Positions 1 through 17,383 of a stretch of 64,000 nucleotides of DNA are shown here, piece by piece. Source of the DNA: Phycisphaerales bacterium (GTDB lineage Bacteria > Planctomycetota > Phycisphaerae > Phycisphaerales > UBA5793). Location of the stretch: contig JADZAS010000014.1 in the NCBI GenBank assembly GCA_020852515.1, positions 124,001 through 188,000 on the forward strand, read 5' to 3'. The notes beneath the pieces are model-generated. The model saw only the letters and a program-made list of their open reading frames with translations, searched no databases and was not told the origin of the DNA. Each line of letters begins with the position of its first letter. Within the stretch, counting starts at the first letter, position 1. Both the position numbers and the translations under genes were made by a program.

Positions 1-1
1 G

Positions 2-1495: not shown

Positions 1496-1713
1496 CCCGA
1501 CCGGGCTGACAGGCCTTCAACAGCGCCGCATCCGTCGCACACGGGGAAAAAGCGCGCAAGCCCGGAGATTCCGTTGCCCTCCGCGGGCGCAGTTTCCGCC
1601 TGATGCTGTGAGGGTCCGTTGCAGCTGGACCTGGCTCAGCCGGGACGCCGCCTGTGTGCGCGGCATCGCCGGCCGTTGTCGTGCTTGGCCCCTGGAGAGG
1701 AAAGAGGATCATC

Positions 1714-3416: not shown

Positions 3417-3451
3417 GCTCATCGTGGCCGCAATCAGCCACGGGGTGCAGT

Positions 3452-3548
3452 GCGCGTCGTCCGTGAAACGCGCGCCGTGAAAGAAATCAACCCCCGCGCG
3501 AACAAGTTCTTGACGATTGCGAATGACGCGGTAGGAACTATCGCGTCA
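3452..3548. promoter_or_regulatory. inverted repeats upstream of the relaxase, candidate oriT/promoter
   Basis: The gap before the relaxase contains two inverted repeats. GCGCGT at 3452-3457 pairs with ACGCGC at 3468-3473. TGACGCG at 3524-3530 pairs perfectly with CGCGTCA at 3542-3548 around an 11-nt loop, ending two bases before the relaxase ATG. MobF relaxases normally bind a hairpin next to their nick site just upstream of their own gene, so this is the natural place for oriT and relaxase autoregulation. The nic site itself is not identified. Confidence 0.4.
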
Positions 3549-3550
3549 CC

Positions 3551-6196
3551 ATGCTTCGCATCACCCAGAACAACTCGCCGGACCGGGCCAAGAGCTACTA
3601 CTCGACCTCCGACTACTACTCGGAGGGGCAGGAACTCGTCGGTGTCTGGAGAGGCAACGGGGCGGCGCGTCTGGGGCTCTCGGGCACTGTCGGGCGCGAA
3701 GACTGGGATGCGCTGTGTGACAACCGCCATCCGGCGACGGGCGCACCGCTGACGCCGCGCACGAAGCGCGAGCGGCGCGTCGGCTACGACTTCAACTTCC
3801 ACGTGCCGAAGTCGGTGTCGATCCTCTATGGCCTCACGCGCGACGGGCGCATCCTGGACGCCTTCCGCGACTCCGTCGAAGCCACGATGGAGGACATTGA
3901 GGCCGAGGTGCAGACGCGGGTGCGCGCGGGCGGGCGCAACGAGGACCGCACGACCGGCACCCTCGTCATGGGCGAGTTCGTGCATTTCACGGCCAGGCCG
4001 GTCGAGGGCGTGCCGGACCCCCACCTGCACGCCCACTGCTTCGTGTTCAACACGACGTGGGACGGGGACGAATCCCGCTGGAAAGCAGGCCAGTTTGCCG
4101 CGCTCAAGCGTGACGCGCCGTTCTTCGAGGCGGTCTTTCACGCGCGACTGGCCCGGCGGCTGGAGGAACTCGGCCTGCCGACGCAGCGCACGAAGCAGGG
4201 CTGGGAACTTGCCGGCGTGCCGCAGTCCGCCATCGACAGGTTCTCGCGGCGGACGGCGCTGATTGAAGAGAAGGCCCGCGAAGCAGGCATCACCAACCCG
4301 GAAGCGAAGGGCGAACTCGGCGCGAAGACGCGCGAGAAGAAGCAGAAGGACCTGACGCTCGACGAGCTGCGGGGCGAGTGGATGTCCCGCATGACGGCCG
4401 ACGAGCTGGCGGCGCTTGAGGGGGTGAAGGCCCGGCTCGGCATGGAGACCCTGCCGGAGGACGGCCGGGCGGCCCGCGAGGCGGCGCTGCACGCCGTCGG
4501 CCACTGCTTCGAGCGCAGCGCCGTCGTGCCGGAGCGGAAGATACTCGCGGAAGCGATGAAGCGGGCGATGGGCAAGGCGTCGCCGGAGTCTGTCATGCGC
4601 AGCCTGGCGGCGGAGCACCTGGTCGTGGCCGAGCGCAAGGGACGGCGGCTCGCCACGACGCGCAGCGTCCTGGAGGAAGAGACGCGGATGCTCGCCTTCG
4701 CGCGCAGCGGCCGCGGAACGTGCCGACCGCTCGGCGTTCCCGGCTACGCGCTCAAACGCGACTGGCTGAACGCCGACCAGCGACGGGCCGTACAGCACGT
4801 GCTGGACTCGAACGACCGGGTGATCCTGGTGCGCGGCGCCGCCGGCACGGGTAAGACGACGATGATGAAGGAAGCGGTTGAGGGCATCGAGGCCGGCGGC
4901 AGGCGGGTCTTCGTGTTCGCCCCCTCGGCCGACGCCAGCCGCGACGTGCTGCGCGAAGTCGAGGGCTTCGCCGACGCCGACACGGTGGCGCGTCTGCTGG
5001 TGGACGAGCGGTTGCAGGCCCAAATCGCCGGGCAGGTGATCTGGATCGACGAAGCCGGGCTGCTGGGCTCGCGGATGATGGGCCGGGTGTTCGACCTGGC
5101 GGAGCGTCTCGACGCACGGGTCATTCTCTCCGGCGACCGGCGGCAGCACGGCAGCGTCGAACGTGGCGCGGCCCTGCGGCTGCTCGAAGAAGAAGCCGGG
5201 CTGGTCCCGGCGGAGATACGGGAGATTTTGCGGCAGCGCGGCGACTATCGGGAAGCCGTGCGGGCGCTCTCCGAGGGACGGACGGAGGACGGCTTTCGTG
5301 AACTGGACATGTTGGGCTGGATACGCGAGGTCGGCGAGACCGAGCGCTACAAGGCACTGGCGGAGGATTTCGTGGCGACGGTGGAAGCGGGCAAGACGGC
5401 GCTCGTCGTGTCGCCGACGCACCTGGAGGGCGAGTGGATCACGGATGAGATTCGCGCCCGGCTCAAGCAGGCGGGAAGGCTGGGCGAGGGGGAGCGCACC
5501 TTCCTGGCGCTGGAGAGTGCGAACCTGACGGAAGCCGAGAAGGCCGACCCGCTGAACTACGCACCCGGCGACGTGCTCGTGTATCACCAGAACGCGAAGG
5601 GGCATCGCAAGGGCGAGCGTGTGGTGGTCGGCGATGCGCCGCTGCCGCTCGACCAGGCGGAGCGTTTCCAGGTTTACCGGCCGTCGGTGCTGCCGATCGC
5701 CCCCGGCGACGTGCTGCGCATCACGCGCAACGGGACCACGGCCGACGGCCGGCACCGGCTCAACAACGGGGCGCTCTACGCGGTGCGCGGCTTCGACGCC
5801 GGCGGAGATATCGTGCTCGCGAACGGATGGACCGTCGCGAAGGATTACGGCCACCTGGCACACGGCTACGTCGTGACCAGCCATGCGTCCCAAGGCAAGA
5901 CGGTGGACCGGGTTTTCATCGGTCAGTCGTCCGACTCACTGCCGGCGTCGTCACGCGAACAGTTCTACGTCTCGGTCTCGCGCGGCCGCGAGCAGGCGAC
6001 CATCTACACCGACGACAAGGAAGCCCTGCTGGAGGCGGTGAGCCGGACGGATGACCGGCTCACGGCGACGGAGTTCGTCGCCGGGCGCGACCTGCGCGAG
6101 CGGGCCGCCACGATTCAGCGACTGGAACGGCTGGCCATCCCCGCCGTCGCGCGCATCATGCACCATGAACAGGAGCGACTGATCCATGAGCGATAG
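3551..6196 (+). CDS. MobF-family (TrwC/TraI-type) conjugative relaxase-helicase
   Basis: The 881-aa bifunctional transfer protein should nick one DNA strand at oriT, stay covalently attached and unwind the strand for export. The N-terminal TrwC-type relaxase domain (~1-290) has the two catalytic tyrosine pairs Y16/Y17 and Y22/Y23 in SYYSTSDYYSEG and the metal-binding histidine triad PDPHLHAHC near residues 155-163. The C-terminal half is a superfamily-1 RecD-like helicase: Walker A GAAGTGKTT near residue 430, IWIDEAGLL near 497 and the late motif VTSHASQGKTVDRVF near 778. The length is close to TrwC (966 aa). The ATG at 3551 gives the N-terminal MLRITQN typical of the family. The next gene overlaps its end by 11 bp. 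All key residues are present, so it is probably active. Confidence 0.95.
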   Translation: MLRITQNNSPDRAKSYYSTSDYYSEGQELVGVWRGNGAARLGLSGTVGREDWDALCDNRHPATGAPLTPRTKRERRVGYDFNFHVPKSVSILYGLTRDGRILDAFRDSVEATMEDIEAEVQTRVRAGGRNEDRTTGTLVMGEFVHFTARPVEGVPDPHLHAHCFVFNTTWDGDESRWKAGQFAALKRDAPFFEAVFHARLARRLEELGLPTQRTKQGWELAGVPQSAIDRFSRRTALIEEKAREAGITNPEAKGELGAKTREKKQKDLTLDELRGEWMSRMTADELAALEGVKARLGMETLPEDGRAAREAALHAVGHCFERSAVVPERKILAEAMKRAMGKASPESVMRSLAAEHLVVAERKGRRLATTRSVLEEETRMLAFARSGRGTCRPLGVPGYALKRDWLNADQRRAVQHVLDSNDRVILVRGAAGTGKTTMMKEAVEGIEAGGRRVFVFAPSADASRDVLREVEGFADADTVARLLVDERLQAQIAGQVIWIDEAGLLGSRMMGRVFDLAERLDARVILSGDRRQHGSVERGAALRLLEEEAGLVPAEIREILRQRGDYREAVRALSEGRTEDGFRELDMLGWIREVGETERYKALAEDFVATVEAGKTALVVSPTHLEGEWITDEIRARLKQAGRLGEGERTFLALESANLTEAEKADPLNYAPGDVLVYHQNAKGHRKGERVVVGDAPLPLDQAERFQVYRPSVLPIAPGDVLRITRNGTTADGRHRLNNGALYAVRGFDAGGDIVLANGWTVAKDYGHLAHGYVVTSHASQGKTVDRVFIGQSSDSLPASSREQFYVSVSRGREQATIYTDDKEALLEAVSRTDDRLTATEFVAGRDLRERAATIQRLERLAIPAVARIMHHEQERLIHER

Positions 6197-6602
6197 CGCC
6201 GTGCTGCAACGCTACGTGACGAACCGGGATTCCCGCCTCGGCATTGCGACCGACCATGCGGAAGCGGATGCCTGCGACGACCTCGGCGCCTTCGGCTGGC
6301 TGCGGGGCATCCGTGACCGTGCCGTTATGCTGGAGCTGCGCCGCAAAGACGGCTCCATTGTCGCCATCGGCTACGGCTGGCTGGAGCGTGTCGCCTTCGA
6401 CCCGTCGGAGGGTATCACGCTCTCGGCGGCGGGCCAGAAGATCCGCATCAAAGGGCGCAACCTCAACGCGGAGATTCGTCCCGCTGTCAGGCTCTTCGAG
6501 GGTATCGCCCGGCATCGCGTGTCGTGGGTGCGTGAGGCGGACCGGACCATCGGTTTGCAGGCCGGCGACCGCGAGACGGTGATCGACTCAATCGAGTGGT
6601 GA
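6186..6602 (+). CDS. hypothetical protein overlapping the relaxase end
   Basis: The 138-aa soluble, acidic/basic-mixed protein has no signal peptide or membrane segment. Its ATG lies 11 bp inside the end of the relaxase gene, so the two are almost certainly co-transcribed and translationally coupled. Short beta-strand-like stretches (AVMLELRRKDGSIVAIGYGWLERV, first 20 residues from AVM) alternate with charged loops. I recognise no family. The coupling suggests a partner or regulator in transfer initiation, such as an accessory oriT protein, but this is inference from position only. Confidence 0.75.
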   Translation: MSDSAVLQRYVTNRDSRLGIATDHAEADACDDLGAFGWLRGIRDRAVMLELRRKDGSIVAIGYGWLERVAFDPSEGITLSAAGQKIRIKGRNLNAEIRPAVRLFEGIARHRVSWVREADRTIGLQAGDRETVIDSIEW

Positions 6603-6605
6603 CGT

Positions 6606-6824
6606 TTAGCGTCCGCGGCCGCGCCCCCGGTGCTGGTCCTCGGCCGCGTGCTTGCGGTTGAGGTCGCGGAGCAGGGGCTGAAGCACCTGCATGACGGAGG
6701 CCGCCGCCATCACCCCCATGCAGACCATCGCGACCTTGTTGAAGACGACGGCGTCGGAGGCCGGCGCACTGCGGGCCATCTGCTGGGCGGTGTTGGCGAG
6801 GTGGAGCGGGTTGGGTGCGGACAT
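6606..6824 (-). CDS. small membrane protein
   Basis: The 72-aa product has a single hydrophobic helix around residues 29-50 (NKVAMVCMGVMAAASVMQVL) and a very basic tail of Arg/Gly repeats (HRGRGRGR). It is convergent with the previous gene, with a 3-bp gap between stops. The ATG at 6824 has no strong Shine-Dalgarno sequence. The composition (plausible membrane helix, basic cytoplasmic tail) fits a real small protein, but the evidence is modest. No function can be assigned. Confidence 0.45.
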   Translation of the reverse strand: MSAPNPLHLANTAQQMARSAPASDAVVFNKVAMVCMGVMAAASVMQVLQPLLRDLNRKHAAEDQHRGRGRGR

Positions 6825-6949
6825 GGTGGCGTTGGTTGTTGACGTGACCTACCATAGCGCATCGCGCGCCGCTTGTGAATGACATTTCTGTTACAGTTGC
6901 GCTGCTGAGTATTGACGCTGCACCGGCGCATGTCGTTCGCGCATCGCAC

Positions 6950-7018
6950 CTTCCACCGCGCGTGGGGATCTCCGATGGCGGCGGTCTCCGCCGACTACAA
7001 TCACATCGACGGTGGAAG
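6950..7018. other. nested inverted repeats, possible structured RNA or terminator
   Basis: Three nested complementary segments occur within 69 bases: CTTCCACCG (6950-6958) with CGGTGGAAG (7010-7018), CGATG (6973-6977) with CATCG (7004-7008), and CGGCGG (6979-6984) with CCGCCG (6988-6993). They lie in a 221-bp gap between two leftward genes, 28 bases past the stop of the repeat protein. This could be that gene's terminator, a leader for the small membrane gene, or a small RNA. There is no T-run. Confidence 0.35.
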
Positions 7019-7045
7019 AAAGGTCTTCAAATGAACGGTGCCGGT

Positions 7046-7771
7046 CTACCTGCCGCGAGCCGGGTCGGTGCGACCGGAGTCTCTGCGCGCGTTCTCAGGC
7101 AGGCCATGACCCGGCTGCGGCTCGGTAGCGGACGTAGCCTGTCCGAACATGGGCGTCACGATTCCCTCTCCCTCCTGCACCAGTTGCCCCAGCTTCAGTC
7201 CGAGCGCCGCGAGTCGCGCCCGCTCCTCCGGCAGGTGATCGTCCTGCGGCGTGACGTGCGTCTCGACCGGCTGTGATGCGCCCGACGGTGTTGATTGATC
7301 GGCGGAACTCCATGAGAACAACTCGGCCACAAGCCCCTCGTCGCCGCGTATACGCTCTCCCAACTTCAGTGCGAGCGCGGCCTGCCGCGCCTGCTCGTCC
7401 GGCAGGTGATCCCTGACCGTCGTGGCCGCTGAGTCATTCCGCGTCACGCTTTCTGTTGGTGCTTGATCGGCGGGCGTCTGTGAGAACAACTCGCCCAGCA
7501 GGCCCTTGTCGGCGCGCAACCGTTCTGCCAGTTTCAGCCCAAGGGAGGCTTGGCGTTTCTGCTCCTCCGGCAGGTGATCCACCAGCGCCGCAGCGAACGA
7601 CTCACTCTGCGGTGAGTCTGCGGCTGGTGAAGGATCGGCGGAAGTCCGTGAGAACAATCCGGCCACAAGGTCCTTGTTGTTGCGCAGTCGCTCCGCAAGC
7701 CTCAAGGCCAGCATCCCCAATTGCATATCCTCCTCGGACAGCGCTCGCGCTGGCATTTCCTGATCTGACAT
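7046..7771 (-). CDS. protein with four ~56-residue internal repeats, unknown function
   Basis: The 241-aa product is built from four tandem copies of a helical unit, consensus DHLPEEQARQAALGLKLAER followed by IRGDEGLVAELFS and ADQ. They start near residues 11 (degenerate), 65, 121 and 178 and are separated by low-complexity linkers. The repeat is also visible in the DNA: CCGGCAGGTGAT recurs at about 170-bp spacing near 7229, 7399 and 7569. Each unit looks like one long amphipathic helix plus a shorter one. No signal peptide or membrane segment is present, and I know of no matching family. The ATG at 7771 has a G-rich site upstream and sits 13 bases from a palindrome. A role in the mobile element is inferred from location only. 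Confidence 0.75.
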   Translation of the reverse strand: MSDQEMPARALSEEDMQLGMLALRLAERLRNNKDLVAGLFSRTSADPSPAADSPQSESFAAALVDHLPEEQKRQASLGLKLAERLRADKGLLGELFSQTPADQAPTESVTRNDSAATTVRDHLPDEQARQAALALKLGERIRGDEGLVAELFSWSSADQSTPSGASQPVETHVTPQDDHLPEERARLAALGLKLGQLVQEGEGIVTPMFGQATSATEPQPGHGLPENARRDSGRTDPARGR

Positions 7772-7783
7772 CTGTGCCCCCGT

Positions 7784-7799
7784 TGTATAGTTGTATACA
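7784..7799. promoter_or_regulatory. palindrome upstream of the repeat-protein gene, possible operator
   Basis: TGTATA-GTTG-TATACA is a perfect 6-bp palindrome with a 4-bp spacer, 13 bases upstream of the leftward ATG at 7771 in an unusually AT-rich stretch. It has the size and position of a dimeric repressor site, or of the -10 region of the repeat-protein promoter. No cognate regulator is identified. Confidence 0.4.
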
Positions 7800-7840
7800 C
7801 GATATCAAGCTCATCCTATCACAACTGTGTTACGGTTTGA

Positions 7841-7987
7841 TGACAGGCTCGCCGGGCGGCGCGTGAGATGTCAGGTTAGGGTGTACCCCATCCTGATGTC
7901 AGACAGTTCCGGCCCGTTCTGTCAGACTGGACTCACTTCAAGTATTTGTTGACAGGTGCGGCGCGATGTCATAGATGTCGCCTGACA
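7841..7987. promoter_or_regulatory. cluster of TGTCA/TGACA motifs, candidate resolvase res site
   Basis: Eight pentamers of the TGTCA/TGACA(G) type occur in 147 bp just before the resolvase: TGACA 7841, TGTCA 7869, TGTCA 7897, TGTCA 7920, TGACA 7950, TGTCA 7967, TGTCG 7976 and TGACA 7983. TGTCAGAC is a direct repeat at 7897 and 7920. Tn3-family resolvases bind inverted half-sites that begin TGTC, arranged as three dimer sites upstream of their own gene, so this cluster has the expected position and content. It probably also controls resolvase transcription. Confidence 0.6.
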
Positions 7988-8002
7988 GTTCATGGAGAGC
8001 AG

Positions 8003-8596
8003 GTGTCGGGGAAGGGGCAACGGATCGGGTACGTTCGCGTCAGCACGTACGACCAGAACGCGGAGCGACAGCTCGAAGGCGTGCAGCTCGACCGCCTCTT
8101 CGCTGACCACGCCTCCGGCAAGGACACCGACCGGCCGCAACTCAAGGCGCTGGTCTCCTACGCCCGCGAGGGCGACACGATCGTCATCCACAGCATGGAC
8201 CGTCTCGCCCGCAACGTGGACGACCTGCGCCGCATCGTCCAGGAGCAGACCCGCCGCGGCATCCGCGTCCAGTTCATCAAGGAGAACCTGCTGTTCACCG
8301 GCGAGGACTCGCCGATGGCGAACCTCATGCTCACCGTGCTCGGCGCGGTGGGCCAGTTCGAGCGCGAACTCATCCGGGAGCGGCAGCGCGAGGGCATCGC
8401 CCTGGCCAAGCAGCGCGGCGTCTATCGTGGCCGCAGGCGGGCGCTCTCGCCGGAGCGCATCGCCGAACTGCGGGTTCGCGCCGCCGGCGGCGAGAAGAAG
8501 GCACGTCTCGCCCGCGAGTTCGGCATCAGCCGCGAGACACTCTACCAGTACCTGAGGGAGACACCGGCGAAGGCGGCGGCGCCCGTGCCCTCCTGA
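8003..8596 (+). CDS. small serine recombinase (Tn3-type resolvase/invertase family)
   Basis: The 197-aa product matches the family length. The N-terminal catalytic domain begins GYVRVSTYDQNAERQL, with the nucleophile Ser in RVST. It continues with IVIHSMDRLARNVDDL (catalytic Arg region) and GAVGQFERELIRERQREGIA (dimer-interface E-helix). The C-terminal helix-turn-helix is LAREFGISRETLYQYLR. The GTG at 8003 follows GGAGAG at 7994-7999, and longer upstream extensions would run into the putative res cluster. Likely jobs are resolution of element dimers or a local inversion. This is distinct from the large serine recombinase at 15838. Confidence 0.92.
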   Translation: MSGKGQRIGYVRVSTYDQNAERQLEGVQLDRLFADHASGKDTDRPQLKALVSYAREGDTIVIHSMDRLARNVDDLRRIVQEQTRRGIRVQFIKENLLFTGEDSPMANLMLTVLGAVGQFERELIRERQREGIALAKQRGVYRGRRRALSPERIAELRVRAAGGEKKARLAREFGISRETLYQYLRETPAKAAAPVPS

Positions 8597-8708
8597 AGGG
8601 TCGGAGCGGGGTGTGCAGCGAATCGAGCGCACCCGCTCACCAGGCCGGGGAGGGTCGGCAGTAGTATGCTCACAAGTGGCGTGAGCATGTCCCCTGCTGG
8701 AGCACCGT

Positions 8709-9863
8709 GTGAACAGCGAGTCAGATCAGCCCGCTGCGTGGGAACCGCACTCGGCGTCTGCGCCGCCGGCACCATCCATGACGGCATCCCACGCTCTGCG
8801 CGCACTTCAGGATGAATCGTTCGGGTTGTTGCACGATCGCCTGATCGAGATGGGGTGGAACCCGGCCGACCTTGCCGTCGATACTTCGGCGGGCTGTGTT
8901 CACGGGGCAATCAATGGCAGATCGTGGCTGCTCTATTCGCAACAATGGGCCGACGCGCTGATCCGTGAACGCTTTACCGCCACCCTGGCCGCGCTGCGCC
9001 CTGGTCTGAAGACGCATGCCCTCTCGCTTGCGCGTGTCGGGGCGCTGGCCAGCGTGTCGCTTGATGCGTTGGCCGGCCATGCCGGCGACGAGGGGGATGA
9101 GTGCATCGCGGTCTCCATCGGGCTGATGAAGCTGCGCCTGTGGGGGCTGACGGTCGCGCGGGCATTGGGTGTGAACTCGTTTGAAGCACCGCGGCCGATT
9201 GATTCGGATACCGGTGACTCGCCGCCGCAGTCCTGGTGGCGGTCTTCGCTGCTCGTTGCGGCCTATGACGCGCTCGGCTGCACGGTGGACCCCGCGCGCA
9301 TGGCGGCCATCGCCGCATGGGACGCCAGGCGGGGCAACTCCGGGTCGGCTGAACAGGGCGTGTCGGTTGCAATGGAGCGCTTCGTCATTCTTCACGAGAT
9401 CGGTCACTATGAGTGCGGGCACGTGGGCGTATGTCGCGCGTACGCCTCGAAGAGCGGACCACCGCGCGACGTGTTCCACCGGCTGGAAGCGGAGGCTGAC
9501 CGCTTCGCCGTTGATCATCTCCGCGCCATGTGTTCCGATGGGGAAGCCGCCGCGAGCACCGTGTGTCTGCTGTTCCTGTTGTTCGCACTGTCGCCGGAAT
9601 TGCTGAGCCGCTATCCGTTCTGCGACGATGCCGATGCGTACCCGCACCCGCTGACGCGGCTCATCTGGCTGCTGCGGCGGTTGTTCCCGGGCGATGTCGC
9701 GAAGCAGGCGTCATATGTGCGTTTCGTCATCACGTCGCTGATCGCGGCGACCGAGGAGTCGTCATTCGATCTGGACGGGATGGAAGACGCCATTCTTGTC
9801 GCGGTGATGGGCAAGCCGAACGCGCCTGAGTCATCACGACCCAACGAGGCGGAGCCGCGCTGA
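8709..9863 (+). CDS. zinc metallopeptidase with HEIGH motif, ImmA/IrrE-like
   Basis: The 384-aa protein has a gluzincin-type active site: VILHEIGHYECGH (HExxH at residues 229-233) followed ~27 residues later by LEAEADRFAVDHL, where an acidic residue near 260-262 would be the third zinc ligand. The spacing and the E-A-D-x-F-A pattern match ImmA/IrrE-type regulatory proteases better than M48 enzymes. The N-terminal ~200 residues have no recognised domain. The C-terminal part has one hydrophobic segment (TVCLLFLLFALSPELL) that may be buried or membrane-touching. The GTG at 8709 follows GGAG at 8699-8702. In mobile elements such proteases cleave the element's repressor, and an HTH regulator lies nearby at 10228. 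Confidence 0.75.
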   Translation: MNSESDQPAAWEPHSASAPPAPSMTASHALRALQDESFGLLHDRLIEMGWNPADLAVDTSAGCVHGAINGRSWLLYSQQWADALIRERFTATLAALRPGLKTHALSLARVGALASVSLDALAGHAGDEGDECIAVSIGLMKLRLWGLTVARALGVNSFEAPRPIDSDTGDSPPQSWWRSSLLVAAYDALGCTVDPARMAAIAAWDARRGNSGSAEQGVSVAMERFVILHEIGHYECGHVGVCRAYASKSGPPRDVFHRLEAEADRFAVDHLRAMCSDGEAAASTVCLLFLLFALSPELLSRYPFCDDADAYPHPLTRLIWLLRRLFPGDVAKQASYVRFVITSLIAATEESSFDLDGMEDAILVAVMGKPNAPESSRPNEAEPR

Positions 9864-10175
9864 CTATCTGCCGCGCGCTTGTCGCGGCGCCCGCTGCAAG
9901 GCGGCTTCAATGATGTTGTAGACGTCGGCTTCGGAGCCGGTTATCCGTGGCGCCTGATCGGGGTCGTTCGGGATGCCGAGGCTCGTGAGCATGCGGTCGA
10001 GGGCCGCCTCCTTGTTGTCATCGTTTGGAGCCGACTCAAAGCGCACTTCGATGCCGTAGGGCCTTTCATCGCGGCCGCACACGACGGCGGAGAAGTCGTA
10101 CGGCTTGAGATCGTATCGGCCGCCAAGCTCGTTGAGCATGTTCATGATCGCAACGTCGTAGTTATGCTGTAACAC
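9864..10175 (-). CDS. hypothetical protein
   Basis: The 103-aa soluble protein is convergent with the metallopeptidase: its stop at 9864 directly abuts that gene's stop at 9863. An N-terminal helix is followed by beta-like stretches (DFSAVVCGRDERPYGIEVRFE) and a C-terminal helix ending in basic residues. The assigned start is a GTG at 10175. An ATG at 10145 would remove ten residues. It lies downstream of the HTH regulator on the same strand across a 52-bp gap that holds an AT-rich palindrome, so it may be co-regulated. No family recognised. Confidence 0.6.
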   Translation of the reverse strand: MLQHNYDVAIMNMLNELGGRYDLKPYDFSAVVCGRDERPYGIEVRFESAPNDDNKEAALDRMLTSLGIPNDPDQAPRITGSEADVYNIIEAALQRAPRQARGR

Positions 10176-10211
10176 GCCTCGTCTTCCTCTCTGATGACGA
10201 GGCTACATCCA

Positions 10212-10229
10212 AAGAGTAAATAAACTCTT
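10212..10229. repeat. AT-rich palindrome between regulator and small gene
   Basis: AAGAGT (10212-10217) and ACTCTT (10224-10229) form a perfect 6-bp inverted repeat around AAATAA. The repeat overlaps the stop codon of the HTH gene and stands out as AT-rich in GC-rich surroundings. It could be an operator for the following leftward gene or a weak terminator. Confidence 0.35.
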
Positions 10230-10911
10230 AACGGTCTCGGGCTTGCGCTGCCGTCAGGTCCAGGACCGTGTCCTCGTCGCAGCCGAACAGTCGGGCAACC
10301 TGACGTATCTGTGCTCGCGGGACTCTGCTGCCCCAGCCGGACGTGATGAGCTCGCCATCAGTGGCGCCATCGGCGTTGAACTCGCCCGCATCCATGAAGG
10401 TCCTCACCCTGGCTGGCTTGATGGCGAACATCGCCCAGCAGCGCCGGCGACCTTCCCGTGCGGGAACAGCGATGAGAACACGCCATGCCGCCGGGCCGGT
10501 GATGCGGGATGTGACTACGCCTGACTTCTGCCCCGTGATCGTGATGCCCTCCTGCGCAAGCGCCTGGATGATGTCCGGGGTCAGGCGCACGAGGTGGTCC
10601 TTCTGCTGCACGGAGTGCAGGTAGCCCTTGAGACGGATCTCGATGACGAACCGACACGGCTTGAGTGGGCGAGGCGGAACGGCTTCGGGGAGATCGGCGC
10701 GAATGGCATCGGTCGTCGTTCCGAGCACGGCCGCCAATCGTCTCAGGTTCTTGAAGTAGACCCGCTGTTCGCCGCTCAGCCAACGTCTGACATTGCGGAG
10801 TTGGACGCCCACCTTCTTTGCGAGGTCCTCGACCGTGAGGCTCCGTGCGAGGCGCAGACGCTCGACCTCATCGAGGCGGAGAGGAGCCGATCGTTGTCTT
10901 GCCTGCTTCAT
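10228..10911 (-). CDS. HTH (Xre/Cro-like) transcriptional regulator with C-terminal domain
   Basis: The 227-aa protein has a helix-turn-helix domain at ~12-65: RLARSLTVEDLAKKVGVQLR then NVRRWLSGEQRVYFKNLRRL, the classic Xre-type arrangement. A ~150-residue C-terminal region of unknown fold follows. The ATG at 10911 was preferred over an upstream start because it places the HTH close to the N-terminus, as usual in this family. It is transcribed divergently from the operon starting at 11068, and the intergenic region holds two palindromes. It is therefore the best candidate for the element's main repressor, with the nearby ImmA-like protease a possible antagonist. That regulatory role is inference. 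Confidence 0.8.
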   Translation of the reverse strand: MKQARQRSAPLRLDEVERLRLARSLTVEDLAKKVGVQLRNVRRWLSGEQRVYFKNLRRLAAVLGTTTDAIRADLPEAVPPRPLKPCRFVIEIRLKGYLHSVQQKDHLVRLTPDIIQALAQEGITITGQKSGVVTSRITGPAAWRVLIAVPAREGRRRCWAMFAIKPARVRTFMDAGEFNADGATDGELITSGWGSRVPRAQIRQVARLFGCDEDTVLDLTAAQARDR

Positions 10912-10929
10912 CGTGCCAACCCCAAACGT

Positions 10930-10977
10930 CACCGAGAAATCCCGGTGCGCGTCATTCACACTGCCGGTGCAACCGGC
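10930..10977. promoter_or_regulatory. divergent control region with two inverted repeats
   Basis: Between the HTH gene (leftward from 10911) and the rightward operon (from 11068), CACCG (10930-10934) pairs with CGGTG (10943-10947), and GCCGGT (10963-10968) pairs perfectly with ACCGGC (10972-10977) across a 3-bp spacer. Both share the CCGGTG core. They are reasonable repressor half-sites for the HTH protein. No -35/-10 pair is clear enough to call. Confidence 0.4.
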
Positions 10978-11067
10978 GAGACTTTGGCCAGATGGTAGCG
11001 GAGCGGCAAGCGCAGCCGAAGGGCCGAGCAAAGGTCGCGCGTGAGGTCGTCGTGAAAGGAGCCTGCT

Positions 11068-11388
11068 GTGGCCGAATTCCTGTCCCTACTCAAGACACTA
11101 GTGATCTGTGGGTCGCTGCTCGCGTTCACCATGATCGTGCTGCTGTCGTTGCCGGCCAGTCGCCTCAGGGCCGTGGCGCTGGAAGTCACGAAGTGGCTCG
11201 TCGTGTCGGGCCTGGTCCTGCTGACTTTTTCACCGTTGGACCTACTGCCCGGCCTGCCGGTGGACGACGCGGTCTACATCATCGCGGCCATCCTGACCGG
11301 CCGCTCGGCGCTCAAAGACCGGGAGACACGCAAGCTGCTTGACGAGGTCGAACTCCAGAACCTGCGCGACCGGGCCGGGAGGAACTGA
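11068..11388 (+). CDS. small membrane protein, DUF1232/YkvA-like
   Basis: The 106-aa product has two hydrophobic segments: residues ~6-30 (LLKTLVICGSLLAFTMIVLL) and ~42-75, the latter containing SPLDLLPGLPVDDAVYIIAA. The (S)PxDLxP...DD pattern is the signature of DUF1232 proteins. The GTG at 11068 follows AAAGGAG at ~11054-11060. It is the first gene of a tightly packed rightward operon, and its stop is 2 bp before the ParB-like start. Function unknown. Confidence 0.75.
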   Translation: MAEFLSLLKTLVICGSLLAFTMIVLLSLPASRLRAVALEVTKWLVVSGLVLLTFSPLDLLPGLPVDDAVYIIAAILTGRSALKDRETRKLLDEVELQNLRDRAGRN

Positions 11389-11390
11389 CC

Positions 11391-12218
11391 ATGCCGGCAC
11401 ACGTCGTTCAACAGATCCCGACTGGCGAGCCCGTGTCGCCCGGCAACATCCGGGCGCGGCTCGACGAGGAAGAGCAGGCGTCGCTGGCGCAGAGCCTCGC
11501 GCAGAACGGCATCCTGGTGCCTCTGCTCGGACACTATGAGGGCGACGCGTTGGTCGTTGACGACGGGCACCGCCGTCTCGACGCCGCGCGTCGTGCAGGC
11601 CTCGATACGGTGCCGATGCTGATCGCCGAGAAGGCCCCGACGCCGGCGGAGCGTGTCACCCTCCAGCTGCTGGCCAACACCCAGCGCCAGGGCCTGAAGG
11701 TCACGGAGCACGCCCGCGCTCTTCACGAGCTGATGCAGGCGACGGGTTGGTCGGCGGCGGAAACCTCATTGCGGCTCGGCCGGCCGTCGCCCGGCACCAT
11801 CTCCAAGCTGCTCTCGCTGCTCGTCCTGCCGCGCGATGTGCAGGACCTGATCGACGCGGGGCGCATCCCGATGAGCAGCGCCTACCAGATCGTCACCGTG
11901 CCGGACGCGGCGGAGCGCGAGCGGCTGATCCAGGCGGTGCTCGAAGGCCGGCTGACGCGCGACCGGCTGGTCGCGGAGACGAGGGCCGTCAAGGCGGGAC
12001 GGCCCGCTCCACGCACGAGCACGCGGCAGCGCGTCGCTCGCGAGCGCGTCGTCATCAAGCTCGGCGAGGGCCGGTCGGTCGCCGTCTCCGCGCCGACGCT
12101 CACCGTCGATGCGGTGGTCAACTGGTTCATGGACCTTGCCGAGCAGCTCAGGCACGCCGGCGCCGACGGTCGGCCGCTGGCGGAAGTCGCCAGGAGCATC
12201 TCGGGCAACGGCAAGTAG
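11391..12218 (+). CDS. ParB/RepB/Spo0J-family protein
   Basis: The 275-aa protein has the ParB N-terminal domain: PVSPGNIRARLDEEEQASLA, then NGILVPLLGHYEGDALVVDD and GHRRLDAARRAGLDTVPMLI, the last being a variant of the phosphate-binding GERR box. A central helix-turn-helix follows (LKVTEHARALHELMQATG and SLRLGRPSPGTISKLLSLLV). The C-terminal part contains a basic linker. The ATG at 11391 is preceded by GGGAGG. No ParA is encoded beside it in the window, so partition by a classic ParA/ParB pair is doubtful. A transcriptional or transfer-related DNA-binding role is also possible. Confidence 0.88.
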   Translation: MPAHVVQQIPTGEPVSPGNIRARLDEEEQASLAQSLAQNGILVPLLGHYEGDALVVDDGHRRLDAARRAGLDTVPMLIAEKAPTPAERVTLQLLANTQRQGLKVTEHARALHELMQATGWSAAETSLRLGRPSPGTISKLLSLLVLPRDVQDLIDAGRIPMSSAYQIVTVPDAAERERLIQAVLEGRLTRDRLVAETRAVKAGRPAPRTSTRQRVARERVVIKLGEGRSVAVSAPTLTVDAVVNWFMDLAEQLRHAGADGRPLAEVARSISGNGK

Positions 12219-12228
12219 GAGATTCATC

Positions 12229-12315
12229 ATGGAGCTCATCGGAGTCGTCACGCTGTTCATCATCGCCACGCTGTGGAAGTCGGAACAGGACGCCAAGCGA
12301 AAGGCGGGCAAGTAA
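12229..12315 (+). CDS. 28-aa single-helix membrane peptide
   Basis: The ATG at 12229 follows TAGGAG at 12216-12221 and encodes MELIGVVTLFIIATLWKSEQ followed by DAKRKAGK and a TAA. This is one membrane helix with a positively charged C-terminal tail that should stay in the cytoplasm. It sits 10 bp after the ParB-like gene and 3 bp before the coupling ATPase. Good ribosome binding site, tight operon spacing and sensible topology support translation despite the size. It may anchor the ATPase, which has no membrane segment. Confidence 0.65.
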   Translation: MELIGVVTLFIIATLWKSEQDAKRKAGK

Positions 12316-12318
12316 CCC

Positions 12319-13815
12319 ATGCTCGGACTCTTCAGGAAACGCAAGCGCGCCGTGCGCGAGCCGTCCGACCTGCTCGCGCTGCCGCTGCTGCACTGGTCGC
12401 GAGACGACGCCTGGACGCTACGCGACGCGGTGGAGGGCACGCTCATCCTGGGAGCGACCGGCTCGGGCAAGACGAGCGGCTCCGGCCGGCTCATCGCCCG
12501 CACGATGCTCTCGTGCGGATTCGGCGGGCTGGTGCTCACTGCCAAGGCGGACGAACGCGCCCTGTGGAAGGGCTACTGCCGTGACACGAATCGCCTGGAT
12601 GATCTCGTGGTCGTCGGGACAGACTGCACGCGTCGCTTCAACTTTCTGGCACATGAACTGACCCGGCAGGGGGCGGGCGCGGGATTGACCGAGAACATCG
12701 TCACGCTGTTCGAGGACGTCATGGAGATCAAGGATCGCAATCGCCGGACGGGCGGCGCGAGCGACGACGGGAGCTTCTGGCGGGATCGCGGCCTGATGGG
12801 CCTGCGCTGCGCGGTGGACATTCTCGCGCTGGCGACCGGGAGCGTGTCGGTGCCGGAACTGGTCAAGGTGTTCCTCACGGCGCCCACGTCGCCGGCGCAG
12901 GTGTGCGACCCGCAGTTCCAGGAATCCTCGGCCTGCTTCCGCTGCATCAAGGCGGCGGACGCGAAGTCGAAGACGCCGCGGCAGCAGCATGATTTCGGGG
13001 TGGCGTGCGACCATTTTCTGCTGGAATGGCCTGCCCTGGCGGAGCGTACACGAAGCACCATCCAAGCAACGGTGTTGGGGTGGCTCGACCCGTTCAACCG
13101 CGGTCTGCTCCGCGAGATGTTCTGCACGGAGACGACCATTACGCCGGAGGCCGTGCAGGACGGCAAGATCATCCTCATCGACCTGCCGGTCAAGGAGTTC
13201 GGTGAAGTCGGGCAGTTCGCGCAGGTGCTGTGGAAATACTGCACGCAGAAACAACTCGAACGGCGGAATGTGCAGGAGAATCCCCGGCCCGCGTTTATCT
13301 GGGCCGACGAGGCGCAGCATTTCCTCACCAGCTACGACTTCCAGTTCCAGGCGACGTGCCGGTCGGCGTGGGTCGCAACCGTGCTGCTCAGCCAGAACTA
13401 CAGCAACTTCGTGGCGGCCCTCGGCGGCAACGAGAAGGGCCGCGTCGAGACCGACTCGCTGCTGGCCAACCTCAACACGAAGGTCTTTCACGGCAACAGT
13501 GACCCGGTGACGAACGAGTGGGCCTCGCGGCTCATCGGCCGCACCTTGCAGTGCCGGGCAAGCGGCAATCACTCCCACGCGGCGGACGACCAGGTGAGCG
13601 CGCTGCTCGGCCTCGACTGGGTGCGCGAGAACGGCACGACCAGCGGCGGGTTTTCAGAGGTCATGGAGGCGGAGGTGGAGCCGCGCGAGTTCACGCGGCT
13701 GCGCACGGGCGGGCCTCCTTCGTGGATCGTAGACGGCATCGTGTTTCAGAACGGAAAGGTGTTCAACGCATCGGGTCGCAGCTGGCTCCCGGTGCAGTTC
13801 AACCAGAGGGCATAA
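12319..13815 (+). CDS. type IV coupling protein (TraD/TraG/VirD4-like ATPase) lacking membrane anchor
   Basis: The 498-aa AAA+ ATPase should recruit the relaxase-DNA complex to a transfer channel. Walker A is GATGSGKTS at residues 45-53 and Walker B is AFIWADEAQHF around 325-335. The motif after Walker A (GRLIARTMLSCGFGGLVLTA) and the late VLLSQNYSNF motif are typical of TraD/VirD4 proteins. Canonical coupling proteins have two N-terminal membrane helices before the nucleotide-binding domain. Here only ~44 mostly hydrophilic residues precede Walker A. Flanking genes encode membrane proteins that may supply anchoring. Start ATG 12319, 3 bp after the 28-aa gene. Confidence 0.9.
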   Translation: MLGLFRKRKRAVREPSDLLALPLLHWSRDDAWTLRDAVEGTLILGATGSGKTSGSGRLIARTMLSCGFGGLVLTAKADERALWKGYCRDTNRLDDLVVVGTDCTRRFNFLAHELTRQGAGAGLTENIVTLFEDVMEIKDRNRRTGGASDDGSFWRDRGLMGLRCAVDILALATGSVSVPELVKVFLTAPTSPAQVCDPQFQESSACFRCIKAADAKSKTPRQQHDFGVACDHFLLEWPALAERTRSTIQATVLGWLDPFNRGLLREMFCTETTITPEAVQDGKIILIDLPVKEFGEVGQFAQVLWKYCTQKQLERRNVQENPRPAFIWADEAQHFLTSYDFQFQATCRSAWVATVLLSQNYSNFVAALGGNEKGRVETDSLLANLNTKVFHGNSDPVTNEWASRLIGRTLQCRASGNHSHAADDQVSALLGLDWVRENGTTSGGFSEVMEAEVEPREFTRLRTGGPPSWIVDGIVFQNGKVFNASGRSWLPVQFNQRA

Positions 13816-13898
13816 CGCCAGCGTCAAGTGAACGGCAAGGAAAGGCGGCGCAGACCGCCCGCGCGGTCACTGCGCGCACACAGACAGGAGATTCAGCG

Positions 13899-14498
13899 AT
13901 GCTGCAAAGACAGGAACCGGATCCGTTGTTCTCGAAGAACGAGTTCAACAAGTTCGCGAGCGTCATGACGTTCCTCACGCGGTCGCTCGCCGTCACGGTC
14001 GAGGTGATTCTGCGCCGATCGGATTCGTTCGGCGAGCGTTACTTCGGCCTCCAGGCAGCAGCCGGGGCGGTGTGCATCTTCTTCTGGCCCGCCTTCTGGG
14101 AGGGCTATAGCGCCGAGCCGATGTTCGTCTTCCTGGCGCTCTACTGGGTGGCGCTGCTCAGCGCGCGGATACGGTCGAAGGCACGCATCCGGCGCGGCGG
14201 GCCGCAGCCGCACACGCTTTACAACGGCACGCCGACGCTTGCGAAGGTCTGGAAGCGCAGCTCGGAGCACCGCATCAAGACGGTCATCGAGCCGGTCTAC
14301 ATGGGCTGCTTCGCCCTGTGCGCCGCCACCTTCAGCGTGCCGCTCGCTGCATACCTGGTGCTGGCCGGCGTGTGCGCCGCCGTCTCGACCGGCATGAGCG
14401 GCGCGCTCCAGCACCACCGCTCGATGGCGCTTCACGATTCCTTCCTGGAACAACGCGACGTAGCAGACGCCTTCCGCCGCATGCGCGACGGACGGTAA
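13899..14498 (+). CDS. polytopic membrane protein, transfer-operon component
   Basis: The 199-aa product has about four hydrophobic segments: near residues 48-67 (YFGLQAAAGAVCIFFWPAFW), 73-92 (PMFVFLALYWVALLSARI) and a pair at ~135-170 (VYMGCFALCAATFSVPLAAY, LVLAGVCAAVSTGM). The ATG at 13899 follows CAGGAG at 13885-13890. It sits directly after the coupling ATPase and before further small genes on the same strand. No family recognised. The position suggests a membrane partner of the ATPase, but this is inference. Confidence 0.75.
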   Translation: MLQRQEPDPLFSKNEFNKFASVMTFLTRSLAVTVEVILRRSDSFGERYFGLQAAAGAVCIFFWPAFWEGYSAEPMFVFLALYWVALLSARIRSKARIRRGGPQPHTLYNGTPTLAKVWKRSSEHRIKTVIEPVYMGCFALCAATFSVPLAAYLVLAGVCAAVSTGMSGALQHHRSMALHDSFLEQRDVADAFRRMRDGR

Positions 14499-14525
14499 CG
14501 CACTCAATCACAGGAGAGCACACTT

Positions 14526-14822
14526 ATGGCACGCGAAGAGCCAACGCAGAAGATCGGCGCCGGGCACGCCTCGGCCATGTTTCGCCAGGGCCTCGCGGAA
14601 CTCCGCGGCGCTCTCTATCCCGAGTCGAATGTGGCGCAGCCCACTGTATATGGCATCGCGGGAACGAAAACTCCCGGTGAGGTGATGATCGAAAAGCAGG
14701 GTGAATCGCGCGACCCCGACGAGCAACCGTCCATTCTCGAAGAGCGCCTCAAGCAGGCGGAGCAGCAGCGCGACGCCGACAAGGGCCGCGAACCCGAACC
14801 CCCGCAACAGGAAAGGGAGTGA
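14526..14822 (+). CDS. 98-aa hydrophilic protein of the transfer operon
   Basis: The ATG at 14526 follows AGGAGAG. The protein is highly charged, with an N-terminal helix (ASAMFRQGLAELRGALYPES), a short Pro/Gly segment and a C-terminal Glu/Gln/Arg-rich helix (LEERLKQAEQQRDADKG) likely to form a coiled coil. No membrane segment or known domain. It lies between the membrane protein and the J-domain gene in the same operon. Confidence 0.65.
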   Translation: MAREEPTQKIGAGHASAMFRQGLAELRGALYPESNVAQPTVYGIAGTKTPGEVMIEKQGESRDPDEQPSILEERLKQAEQQRDADKGREPEPPQQERE

Positions 14823-14826
14823 CGCC

Positions 14827-15600
14827 ATGCATCACCTGTTGATTCCTGCAATCGAACTCGTTCTCGGCGGTGCGGCACTGGCCTGGTCGAAGAGCAAGAG
14901 GCGCGCGCCTGAGGTGACCGTGGAGTGGACCGGAACCCGGTCGCTGGACCTGCCGCTCCGTGATGTCAGGGGCGCGGTGGCGCAGTACCTGGCCAGCCGC
15001 GGCTGTGTCGCGTTGGAGCGCGACGAGGTGGTTGACTGTTACCGCCGGGGCGATCGGTCCGTCACGCGCGTGCCGTGCGAGCGTGACCTGCGCTGGAGCG
15101 ATGTCCCGGTGGTCCTTGTGACCGGGTTCGCGGAGGCCAACGGCAGGACGATGTTCCATTACAGGCTGAGTGTTCTGCCGACTGTGAGCTACTCGCCCGC
15201 CGGCCGGGATTTCTTCCTGCGACAGGCACAGGCTGAGTTCGATGCCATTGTCGAGGTCCTGGAATCGCTCTCAGCGCAACGCGCTCGCGCAGGGCGCACC
15301 GCAGGCAACGGGCGTCGCCCGAACCACCGCTGGTATCCCGATGAAGAGGGAACGCAGGAAGCGCCGTCGCCGGATGGCTCCCTCGACGCCGACCTTGCCT
15401 TGCTCGGCCTCAAACGCGGCGCCACTTTCGAGCAGGTCACGAAGGCGTATCGGGTCGCCTGTCACAGGTACCACCCCGACCGCCTCGCCGGGAAGAACGT
15501 CGAGCCGCACCTGGTCGAACTCGCGGTGCAGCGATTCAAGGAAGTCACGGACGCCTACCACCGCCTGCGCGACCGCATGTCGCGGCAGCAACAGGCCTGA
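14827..15600 (+). CDS. membrane-anchored J-domain (DnaJ-like) protein
   Basis: The 257-aa protein has a short N-terminal hydrophobic helix (LLIPAIELVLGGAALAWSKS), a central ~150-residue domain of unknown fold and a C-terminal J-domain at ~195-253. The J-domain contains the HPD tripeptide (residues 216-218 in RYHPDRLAGK) needed to stimulate DnaK/Hsp70 ATPase. The ATG at 14827 starts 5 bp after the previous stop. A C-terminal J-domain behind a membrane anchor suggests it recruits host DnaK to a membrane-bound client, perhaps the transfer apparatus, but the client is unknown. Confidence 0.8.
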   Translation: MHHLLIPAIELVLGGAALAWSKSKRRAPEVTVEWTGTRSLDLPLRDVRGAVAQYLASRGCVALERDEVVDCYRRGDRSVTRVPCERDLRWSDVPVVLVTGFAEANGRTMFHYRLSVLPTVSYSPAGRDFFLRQAQAEFDAIVEVLESLSAQRARAGRTAGNGRRPNHRWYPDEEGTQEAPSPDGSLDADLALLGLKRGATFEQVTKAYRVACHRYHPDRLAGKNVEPHLVELAVQRFKEVTDAYHRLRDRMSRQQQA

Positions 15601-15616
15601 GGGAGGACGTGACGGC

Positions 15617-15832
15617 GTGCGGACGCGGCAGGTCCATCCAGAACCGGAGAGGGCGCGCAACGACACGGTCGTCGCCGTCCCTCCTGGTACACCGGAGTGG
15701 ATCACGCCGGAGCTCATCCGCCGCACGCTCCAGGTCTGGCAGCCGTACTACGCCGAGAGGCTCACGCCCGAAGACGCCGTTACAATGATCCGCAACGCCG
15801 GAGAGTTGTTCGCGGTTTTGTCGCGGGAGTGA
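15617..15832 (+). CDS. 71-aa protein preceding the large serine recombinase
   Basis: The GTG at 15617 follows GAGGGAGGA at 15600-15608. The product has a basic N-terminus and a compact helical domain, PEWITPELIRRTLQVWQPYY then ERLTPEDAVTMIRNAGELFA. The stop is 5 bp before the recombinase ATG, so the two are probably translated together. Known serine integrases use small unlinked or adjacent recombination directionality factors. This gene is a candidate by size and position only. Confidence 0.65.
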   Translation: MRTRQVHPEPERARNDTVVAVPPGTPEWITPELIRRTLQVWQPYYAERLTPEDAVTMIRNAGELFAVLSRE

Positions 15833-15837
15833 GCGTC

Positions 15838-17328
15838 ATGAAACGGTTCGTCGCCTTGTCACGGGTCAGCAGTCGGGAACAGGAGCGGGAAGGATTCTCC
15901 CTCGCGGTTCAGGAGGATGCCCTCAAGCGCTACGCCGTCACCGCCGGCGGCGAGATCGTCCGGCTCTTCCGCATCGCCGAGACGGCGAGCAAGAGCGACG
16001 AGCGCAAGACTTTCCGCGAGCTGATCGCCTACGCGAAGAAGCACGCGGAGGAACTGGACGGGCTGCTCTTCTACAAGGTGGACCGCGCCGCGCGCAACCT
16101 GTTCGACTACGTGGAGTTGGAGCGGCTGGAGAGCGAGTACCACCTGCCGTTCATCTCCGTCTCGCAGCCGACGGAGAACAATCCCGCCGGCCGCATGATG
16201 CGGCGCACGCTCGCCAACATGGCGAGCTTCTACACCGAGCAGCAGTCGCTCGACGTGAAGGAGGGACTCGCCCGGCGCGTCCAGGAAGGCTGGTTCGTCG
16301 GCAAGGCGCCGTACGGCTACCGCAACGTCCGGCGTGACGGCCGCTGCGTCACCGAGGTCGATCCGCCCGCGGCGGAGAACGTCAAGCGCATCTTCCATCT
16401 CTACGCCTACGAGCCGCTGACGCTCGACGCGCTGCGCGACCGCCTGCACGCCGACGGCATGGTCTACCGGCCGGAAGCGCCGAGATTCACCCGCAGCAAG
16501 CTGCACGCGATGCTGACGGACCGCTCGTACATCGGGGAGATTCCGTTCAAGGGCCAGTGGTATCCGGGCAGGCAGCAGCCGCTCATCGATCGCGCCACAT
16601 GGGACCGCGTGCAGGCGCTGCTCGGCGGCCACGTCTACCACGCCCACCAGATGATCTACGCCGGCGACCGCATCGCCTGCGCCCACTGCGGCCGCGCCGT
16701 CACCGGCGAGCGCAAGACGAAGCAGACGAAGTCAGGCGAGCGGCACTACGTCTACTACCGGTGCAGCGGCTACACCGCGCCCGGGCATCCACGGGTGCGG
16801 GTGACAGAAGAGGAACTGGACCATCAGGTGCTCGCGCTGTTCGGCCGCATGAAGGTCGAGGACCCGGCGGTCCGCGACTGGTTCCGCCTGGTGCTCGCCT
16901 CGCAGACGCGCGATGCGCAGAAGGACTCCCGCGCGCAGCGGGAGGAACTGACGCGGCAGGCGTCGCTGCTGGTCAATCAGCAGGACCGGCTGCTCAACCT
17001 GCGGCTGTCCGAGGATGTGGACCAGGAGACTTTCGCCCGCAAGCACACGGAACTCCGCGACCGGCTGGCGTCCATCAAGCTGCAACTGGACGTGCTGGAC
17101 CGCTCGCACGACGAGACGGCCGAGTTGGCGGCGAAAGTGTTTGAACTCTCGCAAACCCTGCAAGAACAGTGGGTTGCGGCCGATTACGACACCAAGCGGC
17201 GACTGCTCGAAATCGTCTGTTTGAACTGCCGGCTGGACGGCGCAAACCTCGTGCTTTCAACGAGAAAGCCCTTCGACGTGCTCGCCGAAGGGCTTGATCT
17301 CTCGAAAAGTCGGGGTGACAGGATTTGA
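15838..17328 (+). CDS. large serine recombinase (integrase) of the element
   Basis: The 496-aa product has the standard order: resolvase catalytic domain (ALSRVSSREQEREGFSL, nucleophile probably Ser11; KVDRAARNLFDY), 'recombinase' DNA-binding domain (PYGYRNVR... SKLHAMLTDRSYIGEI), a zinc-ribbon-like region (C281xxC284 and C309) and a coiled coil around residues 370-430. The zinc ribbon shows only three Cys, so a His may be the fourth ligand. The ATG at 15838 is 5 bp after the upstream stop. The last seven codons, including TGA, coincide with the 3' end of the tRNA-Pro gene, showing that the right attachment junction lies there. It should catalyse integration and, with a directionality factor, excision. 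Confidence 0.93.
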   Translation: MKRFVALSRVSSREQEREGFSLAVQEDALKRYAVTAGGEIVRLFRIAETASKSDERKTFRELIAYAKKHAEELDGLLFYKVDRAARNLFDYVELERLESEYHLPFISVSQPTENNPAGRMMRRTLANMASFYTEQQSLDVKEGLARRVQEGWFVGKAPYGYRNVRRDGRCVTEVDPPAAENVKRIFHLYAYEPLTLDALRDRLHADGMVYRPEAPRFTRSKLHAMLTDRSYIGEIPFKGQWYPGRQQPLIDRATWDRVQALLGGHVYHAHQMIYAGDRIACAHCGRAVTGERKTKQTKSGERHYVYYRCSGYTAPGHPRVRVTEEELDHQVLALFGRMKVEDPAVRDWFRLVLASQTRDAQKDSRAQREELTRQASLLVNQQDRLLNLRLSEDVDQETFARKHTELRDRLASIKLQLDVLDRSHDETAELAAKVFELSQTLQEQWVAADYDTKRRLLEIVCLNCRLDGANLVLSTRKPFDVLAEGLDLSKSRGDRI

Positions 17329-17383
17329 ACCTGCGGCCTTTGCGTCCCGAACGCAACGCTCTACCAAACTGAGCTACACCCCG
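17310..17383 (-). tRNA. tRNA-Pro (CGG anticodon), integration target
   Basis: On the minus strand a complete 74-nt cloverleaf folds: acceptor CGGGGTG/CACCCCG with all 7 pairs, D arm GCTCAGTTTGGTAGAGC, anticodon arm TTGCG-TTCGGGA-CGCAA giving anticodon CGG (reads CCG, Pro), T arm with GTTCAAAT, discriminator A. CCA is not encoded. Its 3' end overlaps the end of the large serine recombinase by 19 bp, consistent with integration of the element at the tRNA 3' end. Confidence 0.97.

Follow-up and report, generated by a model that had tools for sequence, protein, structure and literature searches.

The end of the large serine recombinase (LSR) gene in the window (the whole 64,000-nucleotide stretch analyzed here, taken from contig G000:C14) is very probably, with a probability of about 0.87 on the basis of sequence comparison, the attR junction of an island of the mobilizable or conjugative type, which would have been integrated by its own LSR into the 3' end of a tRNA-Pro gene. 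The features concerned are listed below in window coordinates.

1..17309, unstranded: right part of a 68.2-kb element, from synteny with genome G004 and from attL; its left end, at G000:C14:73127, lies outside the window
3551..6196, + strand: MobF/TrwC-type relaxase-helicase, above cut-off
11391..12218, + strand: ParB-like protein
12319..13815, + strand: TraG/TraD-like coupling protein, from a weak TraG-D_C domain match just above cut-off
15838..17328, + strand: LSR (integrase), 496 aa in the integrated state, from Pfam domains and collinearity of homologues
17267..17294, unstranded: hairpin formed by the final codons of the integrase (KPFDVLAEGL), immediately 3' of the tRNA gene when read on the strand of the latter, from covariation and folding
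17308..17328, + strand: final six sense codons of the integrase plus its stop codon, which run antisense to the tRNA from discriminator to T loop
17309..17383, - strand: tRNA-Pro(CGG), the target (attB) gene, with intact body, from ARAGORN and the empty orthologous locus in G004
17310..17315, unstranded: attR core TCGGGG, the inferred crossover region, from junction differences in genome G032 and acceptor/T-stem covariation
17326..17328, + strand: TGA stop of the integrase, provided by the T loop of the tRNA (CGA, giving read-through, in some targets)
17327..17330, + strand: GAAC, putative motif of the B arm for the zinc-ribbon domain, from the rule in PMC3783163
17487..18242, + strand: rpe, ribulose-phosphate 3-epimerase, the chromosomal flank past the tRNA, conserved beside the empty site of G004

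The window protein is a large serine recombinase. The Resolvase, Recombinase and Zn_ribbon_recom domains all score above their Pfam cut-offs, the RVSS motif (S11/S12) is invariant across 16 aligned homologues, and the homologues are collinear with residues 1-496, counted from the ATG at 15838. A PDB sequence search returned relatives of the N-terminal resolvase domain only, and the AlphaFold model (mean pLDDT 51) was too poor for use. The original prediction, that the gene ends in the 3' end of tRNA-Pro(CGG), is borne out by the position of the stop codon and by the ARAGORN call: the terminal codons AGT CGG GGT GAC AGG ATT TGA are the reverse complement of the discriminator, the 3' strand of the acceptor and the T arm. 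The overlap is antisense, and the TGA is complementary to the T loop.

Homologues were collected from genome contigs, from 61 relatives and from 301 genomes of the order, and were collapsed to 55 distinct 3' ends (33-100% identity to the window integrase). The same end position within a tRNA gene was observed in 39 of these, comprising 37 in tRNA-Pro (anticodons CGG, GGG and TGG) and two in tRNA-Ser, and the 17-base overlap before the stop is identical in nearly all of the homologues that end in a tRNA. Because this end position recurs in 39 of 55 distinct homologues, the overlap is far beyond chance. The other 3' ends mostly carry tails of the free or array type, or part of a tRNA arm that gives way to other DNA. 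Moreover, all three tRNA-Pro genes of G000 carry either such an integrase or an apparent relic hairpin. The search of viral contigs for homologues yielded none, and the listed LSRs of phages and plasmids are less than 30% identical to the window integrase.

Several further homologues are described here in their own right. Related integrases end in tRNA-Ser genes in G103 (L220 and L221), and one in G197 (L131/L216) ends at a 48-nt tmRNA-like 3' end; when a tmRNA target was tried for the latter, only this 48-nt piece was recovered, below the gathering score. The family as a whole suggests several small-RNA gene targets (tRNA-Ser, and the tmRNA-like end in G197). In the same genome as the window, an integrase of a second subfamily (L056, G000:C32:36937-38424, - strand) ends at a non-tRNA site, TCGGGGTTCGGCCATTTGAAC, within an apparent protein gene, a possible pseudo-attB that retains the core and the GAAC motif. 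In three cases (L082 in G001:C9, L083 in G003:C22, and G001:C25) the contig breaks exactly at the integrase/tRNA junction, and such elements are therefore probably under-assembled in many metagenome-assembled genomes. Two contigs labelled Synechococcus and Cyanobacteria (L012 and L013) bear an element of the planctomycete type; L013 matches in length the contig G145:C5, which is placed in the order of the window genome, and is therefore likely to be mislabelled or misbinned.

In terms of the element itself, its bounds were placed at G000:C14 73127-141310 (68,183 bp), with the right 17.3 kb inside the window. A search of 141 kb for a longer direct repeat involving the tRNA end was negative, because the repeat is only 12 bp long; the other junction was obtained from synteny. 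In G004, of the same genus, the tRNA-Pro/rpe locus is present with no integrase: its far flank aligns to the window contig up to ~73040, and on the tRNA side the alignment resumes at 141310. The 12-bp repeat TCGGGGTGACAG occurs at both junctions (17310-17321 in the window, and G000:C14:73127-73138); at attL its context is ...GGCGTGAA TCGGGGTGACAG TACGCCAATAGAAC..., and exactly these 12 bp are common to attL and attR. The proposal that the tRNA gene is the target was accordingly upheld by the empty-site comparison, the second junction being located 68.2 kb away. The integrase end is absent from the empty sites of G004, G003 and G005, where its presence would have spoken against the proposal, and the body of the tRNA is of chromosomal origin and unaltered, as anticipated for an integration that leaves the tRNA intact. 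The hallmarks of a genomic island (an empty site in a relative, two junctions and an intact tRNA) were thus all observed, as were the relaxase and the coupling protein of an integrative mobilizable or conjugative element, the coupling domain being weak. The scan of gene content covered some of the genes of the 68 kb. The cargo of the left part lies outside the window (L047:13511-20000 and L048:5196-15122, G000:C14 73.5-95 kb); it includes an Hma-type defence system (HmaB, HmaC), and genes for MarR, an outer-membrane efflux protein and HlyD adjoin attL. In another family, G032 contains a 44.6-kb element inserted beside a relic integrase; the P' arm of this element is 96% identical over 99 bp to that of the window element.

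The G032 element also served to position the crossover. Its attL reads TCGGGGTGACAG and its attR reads TCGGGGTGAGAG (TGACAG versus TGAGAG), and base 10 of attL is therefore derived from the P' side. When targets are compared, the wobble base of the acceptor and the T stem on the integrase side agree in each case with the far strand of that tRNA. Because of the junction differences and this stem covariation, the crossover would lie to the left of the differing bases, within TCGGGG, that is, within the discriminator and acceptor strand. The same two observations ruled out the T loop, where the crossover of many tyrosine systems lies. The shared core at 17310-17321 falls inside the interval of 17305-17330 in which the attachment core had been expected.

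The arms of the attachment sites were then compared with the rule described for the LI integrase, in which the zinc-ribbon motif is 5 bp nearer the center in attB than in attP (PMC3783163). In the tRNA, the GAAC motif follows the core T at a distance of 17 nt, versus 22 nt in all three types of P' arm, so that attB has the motif 5 bp nearer its core than attP does, as in LSR systems. When a profile of 37 B arms was applied to nine P' arms of three unrelated types, an offset of +5 was the best in eight and the second best in the ninth. This offset independently supports assignment of the tRNA as attB and of the P' arm as attP, and the family appears to use the T loop as its zinc-ribbon motif.

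An alternative is that a tyrosine-integrase island uses the tRNA, and that the serine recombinase is a passenger. Other islands in these genomes do use tRNA-Pro, with cores of ~40 bp reaching the anticodon loop (such as L079 and L006), which is the usual tyrosine-integrase pattern. The core of the window element, however, is only 12 bp long and is located at the acceptor end, the LSR and no other gene abuts the tRNA in homologues, and the P' and B arms follow the 5-bp rule of serine integrases. A tyrosine-type island was rejected for the window element on these grounds and is highly improbable. Islands with ~40-bp cores were recorded at L079 (G005:C2), L006, L011 and L014, and some of them appear nested between an LSR and the tRNA.

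The core lies within the integrase gene, and the tRNA therefore provides the last codons and the stop of that gene in the integrated state. When the element ends are joined at the core, the frame of the free form reads ...SKS RGDSTPIELFVQGIRSWGTETRVLLAVKP (520 aa), versus ...SKSRGDRI (496 aa) in the integrated form. The expected change of C-terminus on excision is thus predicted from an in-frame reading across the rejoined ends: RGDRI* would be exchanged for RGDSTPIELFVQGIRSWGTETRVLLAVKP*, a conserved tail of 29 residues encoded in the attP arm. For the P' arms of eight integrase-bearing elements, reading in the integrase frame gives a pN/pS of 0.38, versus no less than 0.66 in each of the five remaining frames; past the first 27 bases the values are 0.43 and at least 0.74, respectively. 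The codon-position excess alone is marginal (p ~0.05). By the pN/pS measure, purifying selection acts on the P'-encoded tail in the frame of the integrase. Two further tail types, type 2 (G025 and G037) and type 3 (G030, G111 and G014), were found on full-length integrases away from tRNAs; each is conserved between genera and unrelated to type 1. Decayed or differently ending tails were observed in some P' arms, mostly at sites lacking an integrase.

The integrated form is less constrained. Where the T loop of the target supplies CGA in place of TGA (L005, L010, L013, L019, L020, L041 and L042), the integrase frame continues through the tRNA, and integrated tails range from RGDRI* to read-through extensions exceeding 100 residues. 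Of the earlier suggestion that the tRNA supplies the stop and with it a built-in reading frame for the integrated state, the first part stood, the TGA being in the T loop, and the second did not. Because the CGA-bearing targets are read through, the integrated C-terminus is, as these frames indicate, tolerated rather than conserved or designed.

The free variation of integrated tails would be expected if the change of C-terminus were a passive by-product of an att core located in the last codons, with no role for the tail in directionality or expression, and in the integrase alignment the tail does fall beyond the last segment that is conserved. On the other side stand the purifying selection on the P' tail in the integrase frame and the two unrelated further tails, each kept between genera. 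The passive explanation is somewhat less likely than not. Under the alternative that the frame change has a regulatory role, the P' tail would help the circle-borne integrase in the attP x attB reaction, and its loss after integration would favor the integrated state.

The hairpin that lies at the end of the element has 11 pairs, and its fold on the tRNA strand has a z-score of -3.7. Among 36 sequences, 22 double-changed cells were counted, versus 5.4 +/- 1.8 after shuffling (none of 500 shuffles reached 22). Hairpins are similarly enriched in the 52 bases to the left of other att cores (mean z -3.3, versus 0.1 in a control stretch). The apparent native terminator of the tRNA is displaced to attL, and the hairpin could represent a replacement terminator or an insulator of the tRNA transcript. 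This designation is tentative because a consensus terminator scan revealed no classical U-tract terminator.

The P' arm is present in 60 of the 301 genomes of the order, often serially at distances of 0.7-10 kb, and the orientation of serial arms is uniform, with one exception among the mapped regions. The integrase-less units between them contain whole genes, mostly one to three, and end exactly at cores. A SulP unit occurs within an array in G195 and adjoins tRNA-Pro in G269, i.e., in two genera and two contexts; homology between the two (90.6% over 2.33 kb) starts at the left att core and stops in the right one, and SulP matches in other genomes cover the gene body alone. In G239:C35 (47198-49982), a 1393-bp cassette is tandemly duplicated (92% identity), each copy with its own hairpin and att site.

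Planctomycetes may possess a system that parallels the integron but is based on a serine integrase: anchored at a tRNA, this enzyme would capture and mobilize small gene cassettes bounded by one conserved half-site. Each incoming unit would write, through its P' arm, the tail of the upstream integrase, and the form of the enzyme would indicate whether it is free, has a cassette behind it or adjoins the tRNA. This proposal is a tentative one, falling a little short of an even chance. Integrase-less cassettes would be mobilized by the integrase in trans. Of the 60 genomes that have type-1 P' sites, about 40 lack a close integrase, and many of the units may therefore be mobilized in trans or be relics, as may many of the arrays. 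The arrays could instead have arisen from tandem islands that decayed and underwent homologous recombination, the integrase-less segments being deletion remnants rather than mobile cassettes; relic integrase 3' ends at several internal sites, together with the many array genomes devoid of an integrase, are in keeping with such an origin. It would not readily account for 0.7-10 kb segments of whole genes in one orientation with ends exactly at cores, for the SulP unit as a bounded 2.3-kb cassette in different neighborhoods of two genera, or for the tandem duplication in G239, and is considered unlikely.

Several known systems share features with the cassette-capturing family proposed here. The closest precedent is provided by streptococcal ICEs that carry a single serine integrase and target rumA, in which a direct repeat lies inside both the target and the integrase genes, and integration swaps the 3' parts, such that the C-terminus and frame of the integrase change (Ambroset et al. 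2016, PMC4701971). An integration-dependent C-terminus of an LSR is consequently already known, which qualifies the original reading. As in these ICEs, the core of the window element lies inside the integrase gene and the C-terminus would change on integration. Their target, however, is a protein gene with an altered C-terminus, whereas the window family targets tRNA-Pro and tRNA-Ser, and the tRNA of the window element stays intact; the T-loop stop, the conserved P' tail and the integrase-less cassettes at the same sites likewise distinguish the window family. In mycobacteriophages with integration-dependent immunity, attP is located in the repressor gene and the C-termini of the repressor are form-dependent (PMC8092301). 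These phages resemble the window element in having attP within a coding gene, and several of their attB sites are tRNA 3' ends. In contrast, they use tyrosine integrases, switch a repressor, and have neither a serine integrase nor cassette arrays.

In SCC, SCCmec and related cassette chromosomes, the large serine recombinases CcrA, CcrB and CcrC act at rlmH, and tandem elements are separated by att sites. Both systems employ large serine recombinases at a fixed chromosomal site at the 3' end of a gene. The window integrase scores far below the Ccr cut-offs (CcrB 82.7, CcrC 47.8 and CcrA 40.9 bits, versus 900, 900 and 700, respectively), and the family differs in its tRNA target and in its cassettes of 0.7-10 kb, most of which hold one to three genes. 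Integrons rely on a tyrosine integrase and folded single-stranded attC sites, and their small cassettes, in one orientation, each end in a recombination site. The P' arrays of small same-orientation cassettes bear a functional likeness only to these, since the window enzyme is a serine recombinase rather than the tyrosine integrase IntI, acts at P/P' sites and is tRNA-anchored. Tyrosine-integrase islands that target tRNAs are similar in their insertion at the tRNA 3' end with preservation of tRNA function, but differ from the window family, which has a serine enzyme, a short core at the acceptor end and an integrase gene that runs across the core.

In the searched library, which is incomplete, no report was found of serine integrases that target tRNA 3' ends, of conserved tails encoded by P', or of LSR cassette arrays or planctomycete LSR islands. 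The tRNA target, the location of the tail in P' and the cassette arrays appear to be new. Serine integrases are prized tools for genome engineering, and the T loop is present in most tRNAs. A natural state-dependent C-terminus would offer a ready-made route to understanding directional control in serine integrases. The P' arrays suggest that cassette capture occurs outside integrons, in a large and little-studied phylum, and the cargo of the cassettes (transporters, regulators and enzymes) can be catalogued with a single 90-bp query.
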